Shown in pieces: positions 1 to 9,553 of a stretch of DNA of 20,932 nt. Origin of the DNA: an uncultured Collinsella sp. (GTDB lineage Bacteria > Actinomycetota > Coriobacteriia > Coriobacteriales > Coriobacteriaceae); contig CABSZR010000005.1 in NCBI GenBank assembly GCA_902482185.1, positions 1 to 20,932 of the forward strand. Reading direction: 5' to 3'. Each line of letters starts with the position of its first letter. Position 1 is the stretch's first letter. Below the pieces are notes generated by a model that searched no databases, was not told where the DNA came from, and saw only the letters and a program-made list of their open reading frames with translations. The position numbers and the translations under genes were made by a program.

Positions 1-99
1 GTGTGGACCAGCGCGAGCGCGCGGCTTAGTATCCTGTTCATGCGTCAGGGCCTTTCCGGTAGGTTGATGTAGCAAGCGAAATCCTACCCTGCCCGGCGC
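1..99. other. unassigned left edge, possible partial gene
   Basis: No gene can be assigned with confidence. On the plus strand, frames end at position 29 (tail VDQRERAA) or at position 75; either could be the last residues of a gene that begins outside the window, which would fit the strong hairpin at 100-128. On the minus strand an ATG at 41-39, with GGAAAGG nine bases upstream, opens a frame reading MNRILSRALALVH up to the edge, so a leftward gene start is also possible. Bases 58-90 contain a GGTAGG/CCTACC stem. The sequence to the left of the window would decide between these readings. Confidence 0.25.
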
Positions 100-128
100 G
101 GAAACGGCCCCCTCTCGGGGCCGTTTCC
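100..128 (+). terminator. strong hairpin, probable terminator of the gene to the left
   Basis: There is a perfect 12-bp stem (100-111 with 117-128, arms GGAAACGGCCCC and its complement) around a 5-base loop. The base run after it on the plus strand is CTTATATG, not a real T-tract, so termination is inferred from stem strength and from its position just before the separate operon that starts at 245. Confidence 0.5.
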
Positions 129-244
129 CTTATATGCGGAACTTTTTTGCATCCACCTGCGGAAAAATTGATGTCTCGCCCACAGAAACTACCGAAGAGC
201 CTAAAATCGGCTCATATTCAAACAGACACAAGGAGGGATTAATT

Positions 245-1105
245 ATGGAATGGAGCTTTGACGAAATAAGGGGATTTATCCCGAAATCGATTTCTCTCCC
301 ATACTCAAGAGAGGAAAAGAACGGGTACCGCTCTGTTCTAACCGGACGCGATGAGCTGAACTATATCATGTTGAACGGAAGCGGGAGCTACATCGTCTCT
401 CTGTGCGATGGTAAAAACACCGTCGAAACAATCCTTAATCGGATGTGCGACAAGTTTCCAGACGCCAATCCGGACATGCTCAAATCTGACTTAGCCTCGG
501 CAATGAGAGGTTTCAGCGTATCGAGACTAATAGGATGGGTCAAAACTCCGACCGAAAATGGCACACCCATTGCCGATGAGATTTGCGTGGACAATGGGAC
601 CCATATACGGCTTGCCCAAGAAAACGATATTCGCCTGATTTGCTCCCTGGCAAGCCAGGCGAGCTCATCAGAACCAGAAAGTCCCACAATTGTCTACGGT
701 TGGCCTCTTTCCGTCGAGCAGTATGAACGACCGCTAGAGGTGCGAAACGGATTGTTCAATCTGAGCAAGGAATTTTTCATTGTATATGAGTCAGGGAGAC
801 CAACCGGTCTGCTCGGCCTCGCCCCCTCCAGCAATCCCTTACTCAGATACGCAGACATCTGTCTTCTTTTGTGCCCCGCAAGCATCGCCGTTCAATGTAT
901 TGCCGCTGCGGCCAGCTTCTATCGTCAAGAATTTTGCGATGTTCCCAATTTTTTCCACCTGAACCTAACCAGCAAGGAAATTGCATCAAACGAAGGAATT
1001 CGAAATCTTATCAATGAGCCAGAATTCACTTGCGCTGGCACTTTTCCAGGTGAGTGCAGCGACGGCGACTGCATGAATGTATACTGTTTTTCAGAAGTCT
1101 GTTAA
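245..1105 (+). CDS. PqqD-like / GNAT-like fusion protein of a RiPP cluster
   Basis: This 286-residue protein is the first gene of the operon. Residues about 30-99 look like a PqqD-type peptide-recognition (RRE) domain: LTGRDELNYIMLNGSGSYIV, then a LCDGKNTVETIL segment and a helical end ...RLIGWV. PqqD-like domains bind leader peptides and present them to radical SAM enzymes. Residues about 120-275 resemble a GNAT acetyltransferase fold (HIRLAQENDI start, FFIVYESGRPTGLLGLA strand pair), but I cannot place a convincing acetyl-CoA loop. The last 26 residues hold five cysteines (CSDGDC...YC...VC), an unusual tail. The start at 245 is chosen because AAGGAGGGA lies directly upstream; the upstream in-frame ATG at 134 has no ribosome site. 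The radical SAM gene follows after 8 bases. Domain assignment is by pattern only. Alternative: a GNAT-like protein whose N-terminus only mimics PqqD. Confidence 0.65.
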   Translation: MEWSFDEIRGFIPKSISLPYSREEKNGYRSVLTGRDELNYIMLNGSGSYIVSLCDGKNTVETILNRMCDKFPDANPDMLKSDLASAMRGFSVSRLIGWVKTPTENGTPIADEICVDNGTHIRLAQENDIRLICSLASQASSSEPESPTIVYGWPLSVEQYERPLEVRNGLFNLSKEFFIVYESGRPTGLLGLAPSSNPLLRYADICLLLCPASIAVQCIAAAASFYRQEFCDVPNFFHLNLTSKEIASNEGIRNLINEPEFTCAGTFPGECSDGDCMNVYCFSEVC

Positions 1106-1113
1106 GAGGAACC

Positions 1114-2202
1114 ATGGGACGAGTTTCGGAAAACAAGTACACCAACGTTCTCAGAGCGCCACATCACGTCGCCCTTGACATAACAAACAAGTGCAACTTG
1201 AGATGTCTGCACTGCTATAACAGCAGCGGCGAGAATGAGGTCATGCACGACGAGTTGACCTCAGATGAACTTTTTGTTTTCGCAAAGGAAATGGCAGACA
1301 TGTCGCTTTACAGCATGTGTTTCTGTGGAGGAGAAACCTTGTTGCGCAGTAAAGATATCTTGCGCTGCCTTCCCATATTGCGAGATGGGAATGTTGCAGC
1401 GAGCCTGGTAACCAACGGGCTTCTCCTCACGGAATCCCTTCTCCGAGATTTAGAAGATTCCGGACTCAAAAGCATCCAATTTAGCCTAGACGGCATTGGG
1501 TCAGCTCACGATAGGCTGAGGGGACATGAGGGAGCCTTCGAAATCGTCGAAGAAGCAGTTGCCACCGTACTCAACCATTCCGATTTGCACCTTGCTATCG
1601 CATTTACGCCCACGTCGTTCAACACCGAACAGTTTCCCGATGTCATCTCACTATTAGATGAGATTTTCACCAAATCTAACAGGCCGAAGAGGACGCCGGG
1701 TGACTTTATCGAACTACGTGTCCAACCCCTCATGGTTTTGGGCCGTGCGCGAAAGAACACATTTATTAGACCGGACTATTCCCAATACCGTACGTTGATT
1801 CACGCCATTCAAGAGGACGACTTCCTTCGGAAGCACCCGAATGTCCGACCGCAATGGGGCGACCCCGTCGACCATCTAATTCGCTTCTCTGATAACCGAT
1901 ATCTATTAGATCAGGTTTCAGTGCACGCAAACGGCGACATCGTCGTTTCTCCGTATATCCCGTTAGTGGTTGGCAACATCAGAAACCACCCTCTTGAGGA
2001 TTACTGGAACAACGGACTTAGCTCAATTTGGTCCACAAAACTGGTTCAAGACCTCTGTAACCACATGTGGACCATTGACGACATGGAGCGTATGTCCGAC
2101 ACAATTTGCGATATAGATATGGGAGGTGATCTACACGTTGACCTGATTGATGATACCGCGGATGAACTGTTGAACTCATCGTTGAAGGAGATGTTGGGTT
2201 AA
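1114..2202 (+). CDS. radical SAM peptide maturase with cysteine-less SPASM-like C-terminus
   Basis: A 362-residue radical SAM protein. Residues 27-34 (CNLRCLHC) are the CxxxCxxC motif that holds the SAM-cleaving [4Fe-4S] cluster, and GGET at 72-75 is the SAM-binding GGE motif. Further conserved segments are LVTNGLLL and IQFSLDG. The C-terminal block at about 268-310 (HANGDIVVSPYIPLVVGNIR, then LEDYWNNGL) matches the SPASM/twitch region of PqqE-like maturases, but the cysteine expected before the proline is serine, so an auxiliary cluster there is doubtful. By family it probably modifies the peptide encoded immediately downstream; the chemistry is unknown. The start at 1114 has AAGAGGA upstream and follows the previous stop by 8 bases. 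The stop touches the ATG of the 67-residue gene, so translation is probably coupled. An upstream in-frame ATG (1054) lies inside the previous gene and is less likely. Confidence 0.85.
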   Translation: MGRVSENKYTNVLRAPHHVALDITNKCNLRCLHCYNSSGENEVMHDELTSDELFVFAKEMADMSLYSMCFCGGETLLRSKDILRCLPILRDGNVAASLVTNGLLLTESLLRDLEDSGLKSIQFSLDGIGSAHDRLRGHEGAFEIVEEAVATVLNHSDLHLAIAFTPTSFNTEQFPDVISLLDEIFTKSNRPKRTPGDFIELRVQPLMVLGRARKNTFIRPDYSQYRTLIHAIQEDDFLRKHPNVRPQWGDPVDHLIRFSDNRYLLDQVSVHANGDIVVSPYIPLVVGNIRNHPLEDYWNNGLSSIWSTKLVQDLCNHMWTIDDMERMSDTICDIDMGGDLHVDLIDDTADELLNSSLKEMLG

Positions 2203-2406
2203 ATGTACGAGAAGCCCGTAGTAGACAACATGAATCCGACCAGAGCATCGACTCTTGGAACGGAAACTTGGTTCGACATGTATTACATCGTGTGGGGAGC
2301 AAATGTGGCGGTCGGAGTCACCGCAGTTGGAGCCTATGAACTGGTCCTCATCACTTTTGCCGCAGCACTTCCCCTCAGCGAGCAAGGTGGCCAAGACGAG
2401 CAATGA
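2203..2406 (+). CDS. candidate RiPP precursor peptide
   Basis: A 67-residue peptide squeezed between the radical SAM stop (its ATG is the next base) and the membrane protein gene (ATGA overlap at 2403). The N-terminus MYEKPVVDNMNP has Tyr2-x-x-Pro5-x-Val7, like the YxxP leader motif that PqqD-type recognition domains bind in lasso and several radical SAM systems. Residues 20-58 are hydrophobic and aromatic (WFDMYY at 23-28, VWGAN at 30-34, GAYELVLITFAAALP at 43-57). A polar tail SEQGGQDEQ ends it. There is no cysteine, which excludes sactipeptide, ranthipeptide and lanthipeptide rings. W23-F24-D25 would fit the aromatic-x-acid pattern of cyclophane triceptides, but that is speculation. AAGGAG lies 13 bases upstream of the ATG, a rather long spacing. 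Alternative: a small membrane peptide unrelated to modification. Confidence 0.6.
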   Translation: MYEKPVVDNMNPTRASTLGTETWFDMYYIVWGANVAVGVTAVGAYELVLITFAAALPLSEQGGQDEQ

Positions 2407-2744
2407 GTCCTGAAGCGCTAAGATCATCCATTGGCGGCATGGTAGGAGGAATCTGCTTTCTCGTTGTCGGGGTGTTAATGGTAAAGACCGGCAATCCCGG
2501 CCTGATTCACAGTTACCATATCGCTCATATTCCAAGCGAGAAGATTCCTCTTGTTGCCAGATTGGTCGGACTCGGAATAGCGTTGACGGGAGCCGGTCTC
2601 GTTCTCGCGGGCATCATTGCCTTTGCGTCCCAAATCCCATTATCGGCATCGGCGGCTTTCATTCTGCCGCTCATCATAATCTTTGCCGGTCTTGGCGTCT
2701 CCTTGCTAACGATCGTAGTGTTCACATTTCGACCATGGTCATAA
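2403..2744 (+). CDS. small three-helix membrane protein, possible immunity protein
   Basis: A 113-residue protein whose ATG overlaps the stop of the peptide gene (ATGA), so it is co-translated with it. Three hydrophobic segments are visible at about 10-27, 51-73 and 83-107. Between the first two lies KTGNPGLIHSYHIAHIPSEK, a pattern like the small DUF3784-type membrane proteins of Firmicutes. No catalytic motif is seen. Its place right after a candidate precursor and before an exporter suggests self-protection against the peptide product, or a helper in export; this is inference from position only. Confidence 0.6.
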   Translation: MSPEALRSSIGGMVGGICFLVVGVLMVKTGNPGLIHSYHIAHIPSEKIPLVARLVGLGIALTGAGLVLAGIIAFASQIPLSASAAFILPLIIIFAGLGVSLLTIVVFTFRPWS

Positions 2745-2809
2745 TGGATTTCCTATTGCATGAAACTTCAGGCGCATGCCCAACAAACAATGAAAAAATT
2801 TACAGCTTT

Positions 2810-2845
2810 AGTCGGACGGCTGTTTTATTTTTCAGCCGTCCGACT
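2810..2845. other. perfect 13-bp stem-loop with T-rich loop
   Basis: Arms AGTCGGACGGCTG (2810-2822) and its exact complement (2833-2845) enclose a 10-base loop TTTTATTTTT. It lies in the 260-base gap between the membrane protein gene and the ABC exporter. The T-run is in the loop and not after the stem on either strand, so it is not a classic terminator. It could limit read-through into the exporter gene, protect the upstream mRNA 3' end, or be a protein binding site. The rest of the gap (2745-3004) shows no convincing gene or promoter. Confidence 0.6.
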
Positions 2846-3004
2846 GCCGTGCGCGGCCTATTGATCGAACATAAAATTCCCGTTTCTATGAGGATCCAGC
2901 TCGCAAAGACTCTCTATGGAAGCGCTCGTGCCGATTAGTCGCCGCTTCGTTTCCACCGAACCGCGGTGTAAGGTGTCATCAGTTGGTATTTCATACCTGA
3001 TAGA

Positions 3005-4654
3005 TTGGGGCCATTCTTGATTCGGTACGTCTTATCGAAGTTTAGTAAAACAAAGGGTGCTTTCACGTTCATTGCCATCACGACGATTGGAATCGCCCTT
3101 TCCTATGCCGCACCATATGTGAACGGAAAGTTCTTAGATTTCCTTCTTGCCAATCGCAGCGAGAAGGATGCTGTGCTTTTTGCGCTCTTCGTAGCTTCAA
3201 TAGGGGTCTTTTCTGCCTTATTTTCATATTTTGCAGGAACGTTATCTATCCGTATATCCACAAAGCTTTCTTTTGACCTACTCAGGGAAACCGTCTTGCG
3301 CTTTGAGCGAGTTAATTTTCTGACGAACCGAACAACCGACTCAGCCTATACGACGCAAAGGATTTTCACTGACTCAGGTGTTGTTTCTTCTTTCGTTCTA
3401 ACAAACTTTATCAGCGCTCCCCTGTCTGTTGTCGCCATTCCTTTCGTGTTGCTCGTCATATGGTCGGTTGATCCACTCCTCGCACTATTCTCCATCCTCC
3501 TTCTTGTGGCATATCTCTTCGTTATTACCGGATTGCGAAAGCTTCTATATAAAGTCATGTACGAGAAGAAGGAGGCAGATAGCGCTTTCTATGCCGTAAT
3601 AGCATCGCAGTTGAATCAGATTCTCAACATTCAGTTAACGTCTTCATACAATAAAAGCGAGCTAGCACTTGACACCGGATTTGAAAAGTATTTTCCAAAG
3701 GTCTTGCACTCGGGAAAGCTCTCATTCTCACTAACATCGATTGACAGCCTTTTTGCTGCCGTGTTTCAAGCGATAATACTCATCGTATCCGGAGTGCGAA
3801 TCATCAATGGAACCATGACGATAGGCGAATACACCATCGTCGGTGCATATTTTGCCGTCCTATTTAAAACCTTGAAAAACACGATGAACCTGTTCAAGTC
3901 CTATCAGGATGCCAAGGCTTCGTGGGACAGGATGAGCGCCATGGGAAAGGTAGGACCGGAACCAGAGCAAGATCAGACAGGTTTAGTCAAGATTGACACA
4001 ATAAATCGCATTTCTGTTTCCAAGTTGGATTTTACGGTACCCCTTCCAGACGGATCTCCCCGAAAGGTTCTTGACGGATTTTCCTTCGATTTCTCCGGCC
4101 CTGGAACATACTGCATAACCGGAGAAAATGGAAGAGGAAAAACGTCGCTCCTTTACCTGCTCCTTGGGCTGTATCCATCGGCAGGCAAAGTAACATACAA
4201 CGACATGCCGATTGAAAAATGCAATTTGGATTACATACGTTCAGACACGATATCGTGCTGCCCCCAACCGTGCTTCGCTCCAGATGAGACGGTTCGGGAC
4301 CTGTTGGATTATTTCAACACCCCATTTTTTACAAAGCACCAGCATATGAATGAGCTACCGTCGTTGACAACCAGCATAGAGGGCTTGCTTGAGAAACGTT
4401 GTCCTGAACTTTCGGGTGGTGAGCTGCGCCGTGTATACTTGTGGTCGGCAATTTCCCGTAATCCATCAGTCTTGGTGCTCGATGAGCCTACAACTGGATT
4501 GGATGAAACAAGCCGAGCCGAACTCGCTTCGTATGTCAGAAACAACAAATTGAAACAGCTCATTATCATTGTTTCACATGATAATGAGCTGGCAAATGCA
4601 GCGGAAACGATCGTCAGTCTAGATAACGCGTCACACCGTTGCGCAAATCGATAG
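3005..4654 (+). CDS. ABC exporter (fused membrane and ATPase domains)
   Basis: A 549-residue half transporter with a type I exporter membrane domain (several hydrophobic helices within about 1-300) followed by an ATPase domain. Walker A is GENGRGKTS at 373-381, the Q-loop region is around ISCCPQP, the signature is LSGGE at 469-473, Walker B is VLVLDEP ending near 494, and the switch His is near 525 (IIVSHDNEL). All catalytic motifs are intact. There is no N-terminal C39 peptidase, so if it exports the upstream peptide the leader must be cut by another enzyme. The start is uncertain: there is no in-frame ATG, and TTG at 3005 or 3017 are the options, with only a weak ribosome site. As a half transporter it should act as a homodimer. 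It is separated from the peptide operon by 260 bases with a hairpin, so co-regulation is likely but not shown. Confidence 0.85.
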   Translation: MGPFLIRYVLSKFSKTKGAFTFIAITTIGIALSYAAPYVNGKFLDFLLANRSEKDAVLFALFVASIGVFSALFSYFAGTLSIRISTKLSFDLLRETVLRFERVNFLTNRTTDSAYTTQRIFTDSGVVSSFVLTNFISAPLSVVAIPFVLLVIWSVDPLLALFSILLLVAYLFVITGLRKLLYKVMYEKKEADSAFYAVIASQLNQILNIQLTSSYNKSELALDTGFEKYFPKVLHSGKLSFSLTSIDSLFAAVFQAIILIVSGVRIINGTMTIGEYTIVGAYFAVLFKTLKNTMNLFKSYQDAKASWDRMSAMGKVGPEPEQDQTGLVKIDTINRISVSKLDFTVPLPDGSPRKVLDGFSFDFSGPGTYCITGENGRGKTSLLYLLLGLYPSAGKVTYNDMPIEKCNLDYIRSDTISCCPQPCFAPDETVRDLLDYFNTPFFTKHQHMNELPSLTTSIEGLLEKRCPELSGGELRRVYLWSAISRNPSVLVLDEPTTGLDETSRAELASYVRNNKLKQLIIIVSHDNELANAAETIVSLDNASHRCANR

Positions 4655-4690
4655 GACCGCATCGAGTCGCAGCAATTGCAGAAGGCTAAG

Positions 4691-4939
4691 CTATAATGAT
4701 TGCCCTTTACCCATGCGTATCTCAAGGCCTTCGATGATGATCCTTGATACCGTGGTGTTGTGTTCCGCCGCGTAGGTGCTCATCTCTTGCTTCTGCTCTT
4801 CCGTAACCCAAAAGGTGATGCACTCCCCTTTCTTGCGACTTGTCGAATCCCCTTTGTTTCGTGTGTCTTGATTACCCATGAGGGTCATGCTCGCCTCTCC
4901 AACGGGCATGACGCGGCGAGTTGGCTTCTTAATTGCCAC
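4691..4939 (-). CDS. ribbon-helix-helix DNA-binding protein
   Basis: An 82-residue basic protein. Residues 40-75 (CITFWVTEEQKQEMSTYAAE, then NTTVSRIIIEGLEIRM) fit the beta strand and two helices of a CopG/MobC-type ribbon-helix-helix fold, with a Lys/Arg-rich N-terminal arm. Such proteins are typical plasmid or integrative-element repressors, antitoxins or relaxosome accessories. It starts at GTG 4939 with AAGGAG seven bases upstream. The start overlaps by 11 bases the end of a truncated gene on the same strand, so it was once the second gene of an operon. It points toward, and ends 36 bases from, the ABC exporter. Confidence 0.7.
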   Translation of the reverse strand: MAIKKPTRRVMPVGEASMTLMGNQDTRNKGDSTSRKKGECITFWVTEEQKQEMSTYAAEHNTTVSRIIIEGLEIRMGKGQSL

Positions 4940-4989
4940 CGTAAATCTCCTTATCCTCCTCGATGCCCTCCTTCACCTGTTTGAGTAAT
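4929..4989 (-). pseudogene. C-terminal remnant of a gene cut by an IS21-family end
   Basis: On the minus strand a frame reads LLKQVKEGIEEDKEIYGGN and stops at 4931-4929, inside the start of the ribbon-helix-helix gene. Its composition and the 11-base overlap look like the genuine end of an upstream partner gene. Upstream of 4989 the frame runs into the IS21-like terminal sequence and meets a stop, and no start codon with a ribosome site exists. The original protein cannot be identified from about 20 residues; an antitoxin, toxin or mobilisation partner would fit the context. Confidence 0.45.
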
Positions 4990-5007
4990 TGTCCTCTTTG
5001 ACACCGG

Positions 5008-5083
5008 CGATATTGCGCTTACACACCGTCCGCTCACATCCCGAATATTGCCGTTCGGCACCGCCGATATTCCCGTCGGCACC
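5008..5083 (+). repeat. three terminal repeats of the IS21-like end
   Basis: Three related units lie at 5008-5027 (CGATATTGCGCTTACACACC), 5042-5062 (CGAATATTGCCGTTCGGCAC plus one C) and 5065-5083 (CGATATTCCCGTCGGCACC). IS21-family elements are known to carry multiple terminal repeats that bind the IstA transposase, and these sit where such repeats are expected, between the tip and istA. Confidence 0.65.
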
Positions 5084-5136
5084 GTCCCCCTGGTACGTTC
5101 CGGCTGTCCATGCAGCCGAGACCAAGGAGGTACAGC

Positions 5137-5223
5137 ATGGCGAGAAGGATAAGGGCCAGGGAGGCCCTCAGGCTCCGTGCGTCCGGCCTGTCGCAGAACG
5201 CGATAGCCCGCGCGGCGCATTGA
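5137..5223 (+). pseudogene. istA: truncated istA (IS21-family transposase), first 28 codons
   Basis: The ATG at 5137 has AAGGAGG just upstream. The translation MARRIRAREALRLRASGLSQ continues NAIARAAH and then stops at TGA 5221-5223. This is the N-terminal helix-turn-helix start of IstA (LRLRASGLSQNAIARA pattern), whereas full IstA has roughly 400-500 residues. The stop comes from fusion to flanking DNA, so no transposase is made. Confidence 0.65.
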
Positions 5224-5235
5224 TTGGAAGGCTGT

Positions 5236-6274
5236 ATGGACGTCAGGCTGCTTGGAAAGAAAAACGAGGGCGAGGGCCTTGGGGTCGCTGTTCTCGTTGA
5301 TTCGGCTTTTGCAGAGTTAAAAGACAAGAGCGATGAGCAGTTGGCGGAGGCCCAGAGATTTTTGATTGACTTTATGAAAAAAGTTGCTCGGCTAAAGGGA
5401 GTGAGAATTGATCGGCCCCATTTCCTCCGCTCGGAGCTGAGGAGGAAGGGTGTCCATAAAGATGTCGGCGAGTTTGCCGTGGAAACGACCCCCGTTACCG
5501 CCGGAATCGATGTGGGCCTGATCGATAGAATTGCTAGAGAAGTAATTGATTATGAGGCAAAGAAGTCAACCGCCTTTTCCTTTGCAGCGGGTCTTCCCGG
5601 AGGTGTCGCGATGGTGGGCACCATTCCTGCCGATATTACGTAATACTACGTGCACGCATTCAGGATTATGCAGAAACTGGCATACCTGTATGGCTGGCAG
5701 ACCTTTTTTGAAGAATGTGACGACGTTGATGACGAGACTCTCTACGAAATGGCAGTGTTGCTCGGTGTGATGATGGGTGTAGGCAGCGCGAATTCGATGC
5801 TAACCGTAATCGCCAAAAACGCCCAAGAGGCGGTCGCGAAAAAGGTCGCTCGCCAGTCGCTAACCAAGACCAGTTGGTATCCGATCCTGAAGAAGCTCTT
5901 GAGCTTCATGGGTATCAAGATAACAAAGCAGACGGTGGGGGATGCCGCTGGCAAGGTTGTTGTGGGCGTCGGTGGCGTAATCTCTGGTGCTATCACCTTT
6001 ATGGGTCTTTCAAAGGGGTCGGCGCGCTTGTGTAGGCAGCTTAAGTGCTTGCCGCAGGCAAACGAGCGGATTCCTGGCACTGGGTACTATGAAAAGGATG
6101 AGGCCGCGGTTGCCAAGAAGAGGATTGACGTAGCGGAACCCCTCTTTATCGAAAAGTTCGGATTTTACTCCCATATTCTACGGCTCTATTGTTGAATATG
6201 CTGACCGGCTGGAGGAGTCACTGGCGACTGGAGAAGCGAAGCTGGATGCATATAATCCGGACGTTCTTCTCTGA
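5236..6274 (+). pseudogene. EcsC-like family gene broken by a stop codon and a frameshift
   Basis: Read through its lesions, this would be a protein of about 345 residues. It shows the EcsC-family core GLPGG...IPADIT, then QYYVHAFRIMQKLAYLYGW in the next block. A TAA at 5641-5643 interrupts the frame exactly where a residue such as Gln is expected; the same frame then continues to 6195. Near 6155-6161 the sense continues one base out of frame (DFTPIFYGSIVEYADRLEES...) to TGA 6272-6274, so one base seems to have been inserted. The start at 5236 has GGAAGG four bases upstream; TTG 5224 is an alternative. EcsC-like proteins are poorly understood and membrane-associated in some species. The gene begins about a dozen bases after the IS21 remnant. 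Two sequencing errors are an alternative explanation, though less likely for two separate lesions. Confidence 0.7.
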
Positions 6275-6421
6275 TACTCAGCGGAATTAGGCTATGCGTA
6301 ACAGGATTGTTGTTCGATCTAATGTGAACGTTGGATGATGCTAACTATTTATGGAAAACAGTTAAAAAAGTTTTTCACCCCTTTTTCACTCCTCGGAGAA
6401 GGAGGAAAGAGACGCGAAAAC

Positions 6422-6454
6422 AAAAAAGCTCAGAAGCAATTACGCTTCTGAGCT
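6422..6454 (-). terminator. rho-independent terminator of the tRNA-Thr gene
   Basis: There is a perfect 11-bp stem (6427-6437 with 6444-6454) with a 6-base loop. On the minus strand it is followed by a run of six Ts. It lies 12 bases after the 3' end of the tRNA, as expected for a single-gene tRNA transcript. The preceding 6275-6421 holds no gene that I can support. Confidence 0.85.
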
Positions 6455-6466
6455 GCACTAATGCAA

Positions 6467-6542
6467 TGGAGCCAGCGACCGGGCTCGAACCGGTGACCCC
6501 CGCTTTACGAGAGCGGTGCTCTACCAACTGAGCTACGCTGGC
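6467..6542 (-). tRNA. tRNA-Thr (anticodon CGT)
   Basis: The minus strand reads GCCAGCGTAGCTCAGTTGGT... with acceptor stem GCCAGCG pairing to CGCTGGC. The D arm contains AGCTCAGTTGGTAGAGC. The anticodon stem CCGCT/AGCGG holds the loop CTCGTAA, and the T arm contains GGTTCGAGCCC. CCA is encoded at 6469-6467. At 76 nt all elements are present. Anticodon CGT reads ACG, threonine. Its 3' end faces the accessory region, a common position for integrated elements. Confidence 0.97.
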
Positions 6543-6581
6543 GGCCATGTGGTGACGCAACTGAGGCGTCAACGGCTGTCT

Positions 6582-6610
6582 ATGATACGGGACATCGCAC
6601 ATCCGCGCAA
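6582..6610 (-). promoter_or_regulatory. promoter of tRNA-Thr
   Basis: On the minus strand, TTGCGC (6610-6605) and TATCAT (6587-6582) are separated by exactly 17 bases, giving a good sigma-70-type promoter about 40 bases upstream of the tRNA 5' end. Confidence 0.7.
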
Positions 6611-6699
6611 GTGTTCTGACGGCTTTTCTCACTTTAAATGCACTAATATTGGAGACGTGATGTCTTGCTCTTACGGGTCTCAAGCAGAATGGGGCAGTG

Positions 6700-7182
6700 A
6701 TGATTCAACCCAAGATTCTTCTCACGCGCATCGATGATCGGTTTATTTACGGGCAAGACGTTGAGCTGTGGAATGAGGCGGTTGGTTCCAACCTCGTCCT
6801 GATCGTTAACGACGAGATTGCGGCGGATTCGCGCAAGTGGGCGCCTATGAGGGTCGCGGTGCCCGAGGGCGTGTGGACACGGTTTTTCTCGGTGCAAAGG
6901 GCCATCGACATCATTCATACCGCAACGCCGCGCCAATTGATTCTGATCATGGTGGCCTCACCCGCCGATGCACTCGCGCTGGTTAAGGGTGGCGTGCCGA
7001 TCACCAAGATCAGCATTGGCCATATGCAGGCAGGGGAGGGCAAGCACCCCATAACGCCCGCAGTCGCCGTAGACGGCGAAGATGTCGCCACCTTCAAAGA
7101 GCTGCAAGAACTCGGCATAGAGCTAGAAATCCGCTATCTCCCCAGTTCCGCCCCCGATCCCATCGACAATCTGTTCAACTGA
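6700..7182 (+). CDS. mannose/sorbose-family PTS IIB protein lacking the active-site His
   Basis: A 160-residue protein that matches the IIB domain of the mannose/sorbose PTS family along its length: LLTRIDDRFIYGQ at the N-terminus, LIVNDEIAADS, GGVPITKISIGHMQAGEGK, AVAVDGEDVATFKELQELGI and ELEIRYLP. In this family the phosphorylated residue is the His of RIDDRLIHGQ; here it is Tyr17 (RFIYGQ), so normal phosphotransfer to sugar is unlikely. No IIA, IIC or IID partner lies beside it. It may be a regulator, a decoy, or a subunit using different chemistry. The start is ATG 6700 or GTG 6697, with only a weak GGGG ribosome site. It is transcribed away from the tRNA. Confidence 0.85.
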   Translation: MIQPKILLTRIDDRFIYGQDVELWNEAVGSNLVLIVNDEIAADSRKWAPMRVAVPEGVWTRFFSVQRAIDIIHTATPRQLILIMVASPADALALVKGGVPITKISIGHMQAGEGKHPITPAVAVDGEDVATFKELQELGIELEIRYLPSSAPDPIDNLFN

Positions 7183-7249
7183 TCCCTTGGGGACGGAGGA
7201 AAACGGATCATTTTGCCCTTGCGAGGGACGCGCGCGATGCCGCCTGTCA

Positions 7250-7401
7250 AAAACTATGCCCATTTACTACGTTTGATCGGTTATCGCCGAGCATGTCGAA
7301 TTTGAGAAAAACAAAACCGCAGGTAGACGGCTCGCGCATTTAACAAAAACCGGTGCATGGTCGAGCATCCCGGGCTAAACGTAGTAAATGGGCATAGTTT
7401 T
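7250..7401. mobile_element. 152-bp MITE-like element with perfect 25-bp inverted ends
   Basis: The arms at 7250-7274 and 7377-7401 are exact inverted copies (AAAACTATGCCCATTTACTA continuing CGTTT), separated by 102 bases with no coding potential. Five bases TGTCA precede the left arm (7245-7249), and TGTCA also occurs four bases after the right arm (7406-7410), perhaps an imperfect target duplication or chance. The structure fits a non-autonomous mobile element. A very long-range hairpin acting as a bidirectional terminator between the IIB gene and galM is the alternative. It occupies most of the 324-base gene-free stretch 7183-7506. Confidence 0.6.
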
Positions 7402-7446
7402 GATATGTCACTCATACAGTCACAGCGAAAAAGAGCCCAAAAGATG

Positions 7447-7480
7447 AAAAACGCCCGTCGGCGGTGTGCCGGCGGGCGTT
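7447..7480 (-). terminator. rho-independent terminator of galM
   Basis: A 13-bp stem (7450-7462 with 7468-7480, one G-T wobble) with a GGTGT loop. On the minus strand it runs into TTTTTCATC. It lies 26 bases after the galM stop. Confidence 0.85.
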
Positions 7481-7506
7481 GCTGTGCGATATGTCGCGTT
7501 GTGGGC

Positions 7507-8559
7507 CTAGTGCCTCATAAAGTGGTATTCGATCACATTGCTGTAGGGATGACCGGGGCCCACGATGCCCTGGGGGAACAGCGCATGGTGCGGCGTGTCA
7601 GGATACATTTCGGCCTCGAGGGCAAAGCCGGCGCCCCAACCATAGTTGGCATCGTCTTTGGCGTGTTCGTCGCCCAGCCAGTTGCCGGTGTAGAGCTGCA
7701 CGCCCGGGGCAGTGGTGTAATAGTCCAGCTCACGGCCGGTCCACATCTCCTCGACGTGCATCGCGCGGCGCAGATTACGGCCGTACTGATAGCCATCGAT
7801 GCACAGGCAGTGGTCGTAGCCACGGGCCTGCTTAATCTGCGGGTCGTCGGCTTCCATGCCGGGCGCGACGGGGCGCAGCTCACGGAAGTCAAACGGCGTG
7901 CCCTCGACCGGAGCGATCTCTCCGGTGGGGATATTCTGCTCGTTGATGGGCAGGTAGTGGGCAGCGTTAGCAACAAAGAAGTGCTCACAGTCCATGCCGG
8001 CGTTATGGCCGGCAAGGTTAAAGTACGTGTGGTTGGTCATGGACACGTAGGTGGCGCGGTCGCTCTCGCAGCCATATTCGATACGGAAGCAGCCGGTGCG
8101 CGTCACGGTAAACACGGCCGTAAAGGTGCGGTTGCCGGGAAGGCCCAGCTCACCGTCCTCAAGCGAGGTGGTCATGCGCACGGCATTGTGGACCTCGTCG
8201 AGCTCAACGTCCCATACGCGCTTGTGCAGACCATGCTCAAGATCGCTGTGCAGGTTGTTGGTGCCCTCGTTGGCGGGCATATGCCAGTCCGTGCCGGCGA
8301 TGGTGATCGTGGCACCTGCAGTGCGGTTGGCCACAGGTCCGATGGTCGCGCCAAAGCAGGCGGGGTTGTCAAAGTAATCCTCGAGCTTATCGAAGCCCAG
8401 CACCACATCGCGCGCGTTGCCGGGGATGTCGGGCACGTCGATGCCCAACACGGTGGCGCCATAGTCCATAATGCGAACGCAGATCTCGGGCCCGTTGAGG
8501 GTGTAACGATGAACGGGGGTACCGCACGGCGCGGTGCCGAAAAGCTCGGAAGTGATCAT
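7507..8559 (-). CDS. galM: galactose mutarotase (aldose 1-epimerase)
   Basis: A 350-residue cytoplasmic enzyme that interconverts alpha and beta anomers of galactose or glucose released from sugars such as lactose. Conserved catalytic residues can be placed: His104 (NNLHS), His177 (MTNHTYFNLAG), Asp249 (RGYDHC) and the base Glu315 (ALEAEMYPDTP). GPVANR at 74-79 is also typical. The start at 8559 is preferred because AGGAA lies just upstream; an in-frame extension to 8619 adds 20 residues without homology. It is divergent from the lacR-like gene and ends in its own terminator. A second, different epimerase-like gene lies at 19233. Confidence 0.93.
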   Translation of the reverse strand: MITSELFGTAPCGTPVHRYTLNGPEICVRIMDYGATVLGIDVPDIPGNARDVVLGFDKLEDYFDNPACFGATIGPVANRTAGATITIAGTDWHMPANEGTNNLHSDLEHGLHKRVWDVELDEVHNAVRMTTSLEDGELGLPGNRTFTAVFTVTRTGCFRIEYGCESDRATYVSMTNHTYFNLAGHNAGMDCEHFFVANAAHYLPINEQNIPTGEIAPVEGTPFDFRELRPVAPGMEADDPQIKQARGYDHCLCIDGYQYGRNLRRAMHVEEMWTGRELDYYTTAPGVQLYTGNWLGDEHAKDDANYGWGAGFALEAEMYPDTPHHALFPQGIVGPGHPYSNVIEYHFMRH

Positions 8560-8707
8560 TTGGTTCCTAACATCGAGGTATTTCGGACAAACTGTAGCGC
8601 GAACAGGCGAGATTATCACTACACCCCACTAAAGCAGGGGGTATTTTTCTCAAAAAAGTGATGATTGGAGCTGTGCGGGCGTTCATTTCTGACGCGCGCG
8701 AGTCTGA

Positions 8708-8733
8708 TACAATTTGTTCGTTATTGTTTGAAT
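8708..8733 (+). promoter_or_regulatory. lacR promoter -10 and TGTTY-N5-TGTTY operator
   Basis: TACAAT at 8708-8713 is a likely -10 box; no clear -35 box is seen. Directly after it lies TGTTCGTTATTGTTTGAAT (8715-8733), the same bipartite motif found upstream of lacF and lacA. A repressor bound here would block the transcription start, so autoregulation is inferred. Confidence 0.55.
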
Positions 8734-8764
8734 TGACGTGAGCGTGGAACAGCGAGGACTCATC

Positions 8765-9529
8765 GTGATTAAAGCGGAGCGACAGGATAAGGTTCGGCAG
8801 CTGCTCGAGGAACAGGGAACGGTCTCGGTCAAGGAGATTTCGGATGCGTTAGGTGTCTCGGATATGACGATCCGCCGTGACCTTGAGGAGCTTGCGAGCC
8901 TGGGCGAGATCGAGCGCGTGCACGGCGGAGCCCGCAGTGCGCAGGGCCGTCCACACGCTATGCTGCGCCATGAGTATTCGCACAGCGAAAAGCGCACGAA
9001 GCATGCCGAGGAAAAGTTGCAGATTGCGCGCCGTTCTGTGGAGCTTATCGAGGAAGGCTCGACCATCTTTTTGGGCACGGGCACTACGGTTGAGCAGATG
9101 GCCTCGATGCTGCCGGCGTTTCGCCTGCGCATTGTGACCAATTCGCTTTCGGTGTTTAACCTGCTCGAGGCGCGCGAAGACTGCGACCTGTGCCTGGTGG
9201 GCGGCATGTACCGTCGCCGCACCGCCGCTTTTGTGGGACCAACGGCCGAGGATACCCTACGTGCGCTGGGCATCGACGCGGCGTTTATCGGTGCCAACGG
9301 CATTCTGGACGGCGACGTGTCTACATCCAATATGGATGAGGGTCGTATCCAGCAGCTCGCCTTTAGCAAGGCCGACTCGCGCTATCTGATTGCCGATTCC
9401 AGCAAGATTGGCAAGCGCGACTTCTACACCTTCTGTCGCTTGGACAGCCTGGACGCCGTGGTGTGCGAGCCGAGTATCGCCGCCGAGGATCGTGTCGCCA
9501 TCGAGGAGCACACGCAGGTCATCTGCTAA
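8765..9529 (+). CDS. lacR: DeoR-family regulator, lactose repressor-like
   Basis: A 254-residue transcription factor. An N-terminal winged helix-turn-helix is at about 1-55 (AERQDKVRQLLEEQGTVSV, then SDMTIRRDLEELASLG). A DeoR-type sugar-phosphate sensor domain follows (IFLGTGTTVEQMA, NSLSVFNLL, LVGGMYRRRTAAFVGP, FIGANGI, YLIADSSKIGKRDF). In Gram-positive bacteria, LacR of this family represses lac genes and responds to tagatose-6-phosphate. The lac context and the shared operator motif support that role, though the exact ligand is inferred. The GTG start at 8765 has GAGGA upstream at a normal distance and matches the usual DeoR N-terminus; GTG 8738 would add 9 residues. Confidence 0.85.
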   Translation: MIKAERQDKVRQLLEEQGTVSVKEISDALGVSDMTIRRDLEELASLGEIERVHGGARSAQGRPHAMLRHEYSHSEKRTKHAEEKLQIARRSVELIEEGSTIFLGTGTTVEQMASMLPAFRLRIVTNSLSVFNLLEAREDCDLCLVGGMYRRRTAAFVGPTAEDTLRALGIDAAFIGANGILDGDVSTSNMDEGRIQQLAFSKADSRYLIADSSKIGKRDFYTFCRLDSLDAVVCEPSIAAEDRVAIEEHTQVIC

Positions 9530-9553
9530 CTAGCGCAGCAGACGATACTTCTG

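Follow-up and report, generated by a model that had tools for sequence, protein, structure and literature searches.

Among the described systems that come closest to the locus considered here is that of SkfB, the maturase of the sporulation killing factor sactipeptide; by both sequence and fold, SkfB is the nearest solved structure to the radical S-adenosylmethionine (SAM) enzyme of the locus. SkfB is a maturase of ribosomally synthesized and post-translationally modified peptides (RiPPs) and belongs to a bacteriocin-type operon. The locus itself lies in a stretch of 20,932 nucleotides from an uncultured Collinsella sp. (GenBank contig CABSZR010000005.1; this whole stretch is referred to below as the window). 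It consists of genes for a PqqD-domain/GNAT-fold fusion protein, a radical SAM enzyme, a putative precursor peptide, a small membrane protein and an ABC exporter (Table 1), and is very probably a RiPP cluster. By sequence comparison, an integrative mobilizable element of about 15 kb reaches into the window with its right part. The fusion and radical SAM genes are separated by a gap of 8 bases, the TAA codon of the radical SAM gene abuts the peptide ATG at position 2203, and the peptide and membrane-protein genes overlap by 4 bases. This order and spacing, from which an earlier, sequence-only reading of the window had proposed an exported, modified peptide, were exact when the open reading frames (ORFs) were re-checked. 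The radical SAM enzyme (Pfam Radical_SAM, 63.2 bits) and the ABC exporter (ABC_tran 67.4 bits, ABC_membrane 55.4 bits) named in that reading were also recovered.

Compared with SkfB, the substrate encoded in the window is free of cysteine and can form no thioether, the enzyme lacks conserved twitch- or SPASM-type cysteines, and the RiPP recognition element (RRE) is on a separate protein; the score of the window enzyme with the SkfB model TIGR04403 is 61.4 bits against a cut-off of 300. Sactipeptide or ranthipeptide chemistry is ruled out for the window peptide, in which no cysteine was counted that could serve as a thioether donor, in agreement with its description as cysteine-free in the sequence-only reading. 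Lasso peptide systems resemble the locus in combining a Y-x-x-P leader motif with a PqqD-family domain; the available text of PMC12710340 lists YxxP among the characterised motifs of lasso leaders and places it in a broader W/Y/LxxP/L/I group, to which PqqD also belongs, and the available text of PMC5067487 describes binding of the lasso leader by the PqqD-like B1 protein. Lasso systems also possess a cyclase and a B2 protease. In the Pfam scan of the window, which covered eight proteins between positions 245 and 6192, neither an Asn-synthetase-like lasso cyclase nor a B2 protease was matched, a radical SAM enzyme and a GNAT fold being found instead, and a lasso peptide was rejected.

The EpeE/YydG epipeptide and PoyD/OspD proteusin systems share with the locus a hydrophobic substrate without conserved cysteine, and EpeE is among the close folds of the window enzyme. 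According to the available text of PMC8326336, epimerases of the proteusin type have only the radical SAM (RS) cluster and one critical cysteine; an RS cluster together with non-cluster cysteines is also the arrangement here. In contrast to these epimerases, neither TIGR04078 (YydG) nor a PoyD-type model is among the best 25 of 80 NCBIfam matches of the window enzyme, in which C69 and C71 are candidate hydrogen donors on sequence grounds. The pyrroloquinoline quinone (PQQ; PqqA/D/E) and mycofactocin pathways similarly combine a PqqD-type chaperone, a radical SAM enzyme and a small peptide, and their PqqD models score 25.5 and 26.1 bits here; however, scores for the window lie far below the respective cut-offs (46 and 101 bits for PqqD, 381 for PqqE and 265 for mycofactocin), and an exporter and a membrane protein are present. 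A further cluster, in the Collinsella genome G040 (L026:4177-9838, minus strand), contains a radical SAM enzyme with a WGDPVDH motif, a PqqD-domain protein (19.4 bits, below the cut-off of 23.4), a DUF3784-like membrane protein and an ABC gene, but its radical SAM enzyme is only 36% identical to that of the window, it includes an extra methyltransferase-domain protein and no peptide was matched there by profile.

The explanation proposed for the locus is as follows. The cluster would be carried by the mobilizable element; the PqqD domain of the fusion protein would bind the Y-x-x-P leader of the peptide and thereby offer the radical SAM enzyme the hydrophobic core, rich in Val, Ala, Gly, Tyr and Trp. 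The GNAT-fold domain may be a docking module for substrate or enzyme. The enzyme, with a single RS cluster, would alter unactivated C-H positions, the best guess being Cα epimerization with the C69/C71 pair beside GGE as hydrogen donor. The ABC protein would export the product, an unlinked protease would remove the leader, and the product would be a membrane-active bacteriocin directed against close relatives, to which the 113-residue membrane protein would confer immunity. Taken as a whole, from mobile RiPP cluster to epimerized, exported bacteriocin with its own immunity protein, this explanation is nearly evenly balanced and falls slightly on the doubtful side.

Putative precursor peptide and PqqD-domain fusion protein

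A profile built from four of the peptides matched 66 database proteins at E ≤ 1 (65 of them with E < 1e-5); the 66 are not equivalent to independent genes, many being cut or frameshifted metagenome copies. A profile of 12 sequences identified nine places in eight genomes when searched over 43 Collinsella genomes. Eight of the nine are directly downstream of a radical SAM gene of this type, and the ninth (G002) is a remnant without the enzyme. Starting from the enzyme, all eight Collinsella copies of at least 46% identity have the peptide directly downstream, and the same order of fusion, radical SAM, peptide and membrane-protein genes is found in a divergent copy from another family, probably Atopobiaceae (G238). 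The sequence-only reading had staked its proposal in advance on conservation of the peptide next to the radical SAM gene in other genomes, and such conservation was observed in the Collinsella copies of at least 46% identity and in G238. The peptide profile gave four matches over 140 genomes of the family of G084, complete in G238 and decayed in G084, G143 and G328; the G143 and G328 peptides were themselves members of the 12-sequence profile. The ratio of nonsynonymous to synonymous substitution rates (dN/dS) between the peptide genes of the window and of G084 (L019) is 0.12 over 66 codons, at a dS of 1.7 that is near saturation. As judged by these sequence comparisons, the peptide is a real, conserved gene.

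The leader of the window peptide contains the sequence YEKP, and the Tyr and Pro of this Y-x-x-P motif are kept in all 12 aligned peptides. The motif occurs within the first 30 residues of 55 of the 66 database proteins; nine of the remaining 11 begin at a later Met, and the other two (P0122 and P0155) have altered starts. Since Y-x-x-P is a known RRE motif, the leader fits the PqqD domain of the fusion protein. The leader is followed by a hydrophobic core, in which the best 19-residue segment (residues 35-53) has a mean hydropathy of 1.9. Four other peptides that were checked are, like that of the window, free of cysteine.

Relationships between peptide types were assessed with 500 shuffles for each comparison of a profile with a peptide. 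With the type-A and type-C profiles, each other's peptides and those of G328 and G143 all score higher than any shuffle. With the type-A profile, one of two type-B peptides scores above all shuffles, and the score of the other was reached by 30 of the 500; with the type-C profile, the scores of the two were reached by 181 and 57. The type-B profile scores for type A, type C, G328 and G143 were reached by 3, 160, 45 and 215 shuffles, respectively. What ties type B to the family is chiefly its leader sequence (MYExPxVxxM), together with its gene content.

The fusion protein contains an N-terminal PqqD/RRE-like domain (residues ~38-85) and a C-terminal GNAT-fold domain (residues ~112-286), and the first of these, already suggested in the sequence-only reading, matches Pfam PF05402 with 35.5 bits (cut-off 23.4). 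The AlphaFold2 model of the fusion protein, calculated from 11 sequences, is of modest quality with a pLDDT of 67.3. Its best Foldseek match is RimL (1s7n; E 1.4e-7, TM-score by target 0.66), and the C-terminal domain has the strand-helix order of the GNAT fold, with matches to the RimL and SpeG acetyltransferases. The acetyl-CoA motif of GNAT acetyltransferases is [RQ]xxGx[GA]; none is present anywhere in the window fusion protein or in its type-B (L021) and type-C (L022) homologues. The earlier description of this protein as GNAT-like thus holds at the level of the fold in a modest model, but not for the acetyl-CoA motif. We read the domain as a GNAT fold that has lost the usual mode of acetyl-CoA binding, and it is probably without acetyltransferase activity. 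The terms 'GNAT' and 'acetyltransferase' do not occur in the main texts, supplements aside, of two RRE papers, one of which is PMC12710340 (text available in part), and a literature search for radical SAM, PqqD and GNAT combined returned only a lanthipeptide-engineering review, judged by its listing.

Several observations count against the proposed explanation. One peptide, P0154, which is 71% identical to that of the window, has a single, unconserved cysteine at position 27, so that the family is not strictly free of cysteine. A sequence relationship of type-B peptides to those of type A or type C is, for the most part, unsupported against the shuffles. In G238, no related ABC gene adjoins the other four, and no leader protease was matched by Pfam among the eight window proteins scanned.

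The radical SAM enzyme and its candidate chemistry

A search for homologues of the enzyme at E ≤ 1e-10 reported 289, of which 120 were listed. Nine of those listed, 41-45% identical, bear Bacillota names, and Collinsella sp. BG-O-102 and C. aerofaciens D31t1 encode the 362-residue protein itself with an identity of 100% (rounded). The enzyme contains a Cx3Cx2C motif (C27, C31 and C34), a CxCGGE motif with C69 and C71, and a WGDPxDH motif. C69 and C71 do not vary across the 120 listed homologues (conservation rounding to 1.0), and conservation of the Cx3Cx2C cysteines is 97%. The alignment used for structure prediction comprises the window protein and 111 of these 120, nine being left out, including shorter or longer proteins and near-identical copies. 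All five cysteines are present in each of its 112 rows; the next cysteine column, C85, is occupied in 72 rows, and columns beyond residue 200 in at most 33. No conserved C-terminal cysteines of the SPASM or twitch type were found in this alignment, and the Pfam SPASM score (17.5 bits) is below the cut-off of 21.5.

The structure model of the enzyme has a pLDDT of 93.5 and shows strands resembling a SPASM-like tail in the region after residue 265. The nearest solved structure is SkfB (6efn) both by sequence (E 2.2e-14) and as the best Foldseek match (E 1.2e-14). Foldseek ranks 1-5 are occupied by SkfB, SuiB and PqqE, all RiPP maturases. Below these come DesII, BlsE, viperin, EpeE, MoaA and others, so that the top matches are peptide maturases but many of the later ones are something else; the high fold ranks of DesII, BlsE, viperin and MoaA count against the proposed explanation. 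The best 25 of 80 NCBIfam matches of the enzyme are far below cut-off, all six of the fusion protein are below it, the peptide and the membrane protein have none, and a scan of the related loci likewise gave no curated-class match above cut-off. A named class was therefore ruled out among the Pfam and NCBIfam matches listed, all of them below cut-off, and within those models the view of the sequence-only reading that the locus fits no named class is upheld.

Epimerization is put forward tentatively over other C-H modifications, by analogy. The description of the proteusin epimerases would suit this enzyme, on resemblance only, better than that of multi-cluster cross-linking enzymes, although nothing in the sequence distinguishes epimerization from C-C bond formation, which again counts against the proposed explanation. 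C-C cross-linking ranks close behind epimerization. A RiPP cluster whose enzyme introduces C-C or C-heteroatom cross-links, for instance at Trp, Tyr or Asn of the core, and not D-residues is rather unlikely, yet it is the alternative that survives best. It would agree with the retention of aromatic and Asn residues in type-A cores and with the nearest folds, SkfB and SuiB, both of which are cross-linking enzymes. On the other hand, little of the core recurs in type-B peptides. Auxiliary clusters, housed in a SPASM or twitch domain, are also found in many radical SAM enzymes of RiPP pathways (PMC8326336, available text), and for such clusters the present enzyme has no conserved cysteines.

Mobile element, decayed loci and the candidate immunity protein

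The cluster in L002 is located between two 49-bp copies of tRNA-Thr(CGT) sequence that are 15.1 kb apart. The left copy is outside the window and is found in L002 at 235-283, such that the element spans L002:235-15399. Pfam matches among the element genes of L002 comprise a tyrosine-type integrase (PF00589), a DnaB-like ATPase, NikA/MobC, a type IV secretion system coupling protein, a MobA-type relaxase and an IS21 helper; no full conjugation set was found among ORFs of at least 60 residues in L002 1-9100. Both repeats are also present in the G025 copy and in the G001 copy, where the left one extends over 47 bases. Three copies are thus flanked by repeats of 47-49 bp, with mobilization genes observed in one of them (L002). 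The window is 99.85% identical to L001 over positions 1-6665, and the identity falls to 85-95% past the tRNA. Compared with L002 (98.3% over 1-7340) and L018 (96.6% over 411-9531), there is no identity step at the tRNA. That the window contains the right end of the element rests on the repeats at tRNA-Thr, the mobilization genes in L002 and the identity drop against L001. This element, the absence of the acetyl-CoA motif from the GNAT fold and the absence of SPASM cysteines were not visible to the sequence-only reading.

The distribution is patchy. The enzyme profile matched at E ≤ 1e-40 in nine of 395 genomes of the order, which we take to be Coriobacteriales, G040 included. Two of 396 genomes in a sample of the phylum also matched the profile, one of them (G605) at low score. 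In G605 (L064:6535-12299, plus strand), genes for PqqD-like proteins, radical SAM enzymes and TldD/PmbA-like proteases, two of each, lie in a row, the PqqD and protease names being assigned by eye. A phage origin was not indicated: none of 50,697 phage records matched the radical SAM enzyme at E ≤ 1e-15, and viral_contigs gave one weak, partial match (37% over 59 residues). The single match at E ≤ 1e-20 in 72,556 plasmid records is a Collinsella record of 899,693 bases that carries the type-B locus. That record aside, the plasmid hits of two Bacillota relatives are only 24-31% identical, and a plasmid origin was rejected.

The membrane protein of the window has a weak match to DUF3784 (13.9 bits, cut-off 28.1). 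Those of type B and G040 score just under the cut-off (24.8 and 23.5 bits, respectively), and the type-C protein gave no match in the same scan. Open frames were compared across 14 loci, from which relatives without cluster remnants, G040 and G605 had been excluded before counting. All five genes are complete in five loci (G001, both loci of G019, G008 and G011), and the first four are complete in G238. The biosynthetic genes are broken or gone in the other eight. The fusion gene is disrupted by an insertion of about 1.6 kb in G025 and its frame is broken in G010, whereas the fusion gene and the first 74 of 348 enzyme residues are missing in G007; in G002, G084, G154, G143 and G328, the enzyme is reduced to tails or is absent. 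Of the eight decayed loci, four retain an intact peptide frame (G025, G010, G007 and, by direct reading of its frames, G328), two have it interrupted by a stop (G084 and G143), and in two it is reduced or lost (G002 and G154). The frame of the membrane protein is open in all 14 loci, including all eight decayed ones, where the G143 and G328 proteins are distant copies matched over 82% and 87%. Loss of production with an open membrane-protein gene suggests the pattern of self-immunity to a bacteriocin.

This pattern is subject to several counterweights. Searches with the peptide or enzyme yielded five of the decayed loci, but the other three (G154, G143 and G328) came from a search with the membrane protein itself, which biases the open-frame count. 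A gene of about 340 bp is also a small target for chance breakage, and the count was set against no neutral expectation. The dN/dS values of orphan membrane-protein genes relative to the window are 0.31 and 0.27; genes of G084 that are already dead score lower (0.12 for the stop-bearing peptide and 0.11 for the ABC piece), so that such values reflect the time before loss rather than later selection, and dN/dS was dropped as evidence for immunity. A search with the membrane protein matched 33 of 395 genomes. Among the single-domain relatives that were fetched, cluster remnants adjoin those of G154, G143 and G328, and no detectable remnant adjoins those of G287, G257 and G223. Proteins of about 240-300 residues, some of them with two repeats of the membrane-protein domain (TGNPxxxHxYH; e.g. 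L060:7809-8546 and L061:8052-8858) also occur in several genomes of the order, in ordinary chromosomal surroundings at the two loci examined. Confidence in the bacteriocin and its immunity protein was lowered because dN/dS gave no support and cluster-free relatives exist. A bacteriocin with the membrane protein as its immunity factor is, on sequence evidence, still slightly favoured. The immunity role given to this protein in the sequence-only reading thus gained some support from the decayed loci, but none from dN/dS, which is uninformative, and the cluster-free relatives speak against it.

Some radical SAM RiPPs act in signalling contexts. The product could accordingly be a quorum-sensing signal or an envelope-acting factor, with the membrane protein as its receptor, its partner or an unrelated passenger, and the occurrence of such membrane proteins away from clusters (in G287, G257 and G223, and as two-repeat proteins) would agree with this. 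The five genes include no regulator, however, and in G002 and G154 the membrane protein is still there although peptide and enzyme are gone, which would suit immunity better than a receptor without its ligand; a signalling role is improbable. A still more improbable reading takes the 67-residue ORF for an ordinary small membrane protein, with the enzyme acting on some other substrate. The hydropathy of its core segment and the intact peptide frames beside broken enzymes in G007 and G328 are in line with that reading; the Y-x-x-P leader, kept across types, the position of the peptide next to fusion and radical SAM genes in six intact loci, and its loss or breakage along with the enzyme in G002, G084, G154 and G143 all argue against it. 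Least credible of all is that the peptide is the precursor of a redox cofactor, made by a pathway similar to those of PQQ and mycofactocin. The joint presence of PqqD, radical SAM enzyme and small peptide and the distant actinomycetotal locus of G605 (a related radical SAM enzyme among two PqqD-like proteins and a second radical SAM enzyme) could be cited in its favour, but it is at odds with the exporter, the hydrophobic and variable core, the patchy distribution and the lack of any dehydrogenase or peptidase match among the window proteins scanned.

Returning to the RiPP cluster with an exported bacteriocin, the logic of a leader, an RRE and a radical SAM enzyme is established, and the cluster is not a new kind in this respect. 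Its combination of a pseudo-GNAT fusion, a CxCGGE enzyme, a Y-x-x-P precursor without conserved cysteine and a mobile setting matches none of the families whose Pfam and NCBIfam models were scanned. More speculatively, and on balance doubtfully, it could represent a new RiPP class on mobilizable elements of gut Coriobacteriia, within an enzyme family extending more broadly into Bacillota. In such a class, peptides with Y-x-x-P leaders would be handed over by a fusion of PqqD and a pseudo-acetyltransferase to a radical SAM enzyme free of auxiliary clusters, which would transfer hydrogen through a CxC pair adjoining the SAM-binding GGE motif, giving cysteine-independent, membrane-inserting bacteriocins with D-residues or cross-links and a DUF3784-like immunity protein. 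In the papers listed by literature searches on Collinsella and RiPPs (subscription papers, preprints and supplements aside), and in those of a wider search, none of which named Coriobacteria, no title or abstract beginning mentions such a system, and none is described in the available text of PMC9025905 or PMC10039858; the RiPP clusters predicted automatically across gut genomes and counted in the latter could include this one unnamed. If correct, the proposal would make antagonism open to testing in a genus common in the gut, and would add a radical SAM family whose CxCGGE active site is unusual and which lacks conserved SPASM cysteines. It would also offer a repurposed GNAT fold, joined to a domain for leader binding, and a set of natural loci that have lost production but kept an open candidate immunity gene.

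Gene layout and neighbouring features

Table 1. Features of the locus, with positions in the window and the basis of each assignment
Feature	Position	Strand	Basis
PqqD-domain/GNAT-fold fusion, 286 aa	245..1105	+	ORF check, Pfam, AlphaFold2, Foldseek
Radical SAM enzyme, 362 aa	1114..2202	+	Pfam, homologue alignment, structure model
Putative RiPP precursor peptide, 67 aa	2203..2406	+	Peptide family, dN/dS, hydropathy, shuffles
Membrane protein, 113 aa, 3 predicted transmembrane segments	2403..2744	+	Pfam, hydropathy, open-frame table
Hairpin, perfect 12 bp with 10-nt loop, between membrane-protein and ABC genes	2811..2844	.	Direct reading
ABC exporter, transmembrane and nucleotide-binding domains in a single chain	3017..4654 (alternative ORF start 3005)	+	Pfam ABC_tran, ABC_membrane
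attR, 49-bp repeat, 3' part of tRNA-Thr(CGT), right element end	6463..6511	.	

The fusion gene starts with an ATG after AAGGAGGG, and purine runs resembling ribosome-binding sites were seen by eye upstream of the fusion, radical SAM and peptide genes. The TTG codon at 3017 is the more likely start of the ABC protein (545 residues), as the ABC relic of G084 (L019) starts at the matching codon. No peptidase domain was matched by Pfam in the ABC protein. The hairpin upstream of the exporter gene has a longer loop than the 3-8 nt allowed in the terminator scan and is not listed there; it is a possible terminator or attenuator, so that the exporter may be transcribed separately or at another level.

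Just downstream of the exporter, an ORF of 82 residues (4691-4939, minus strand) has, by eye, the look of a ribbon-helix-helix DNA-binding protein and is a possible element-borne regulator or antitoxin. Farther on, two ORFs (5224-5640 and 5650-6192, plus strand) share one frame with a stop between them and look like a single interrupted gene; neither has a Pfam match above cut-off, and the pair is spaced equally in L001, L002 and L018.

The flank of the type-B cluster (L021:11837-13653, plus strand, and L021:11027-11680, minus strand) encodes a DUF5969 protein of 246 residues with an LNANAVTNAN...NANANAQNNAN stretch and an overlapping radical SAM gene, which scores 96.5 bits with the YydG epimerase model, below its cut-off of 300. 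A membrane protein of the same flank, without a match in NCBIfam, resembles immunity proteins of the SdpI type, and the flank is possibly a second RiPP system.

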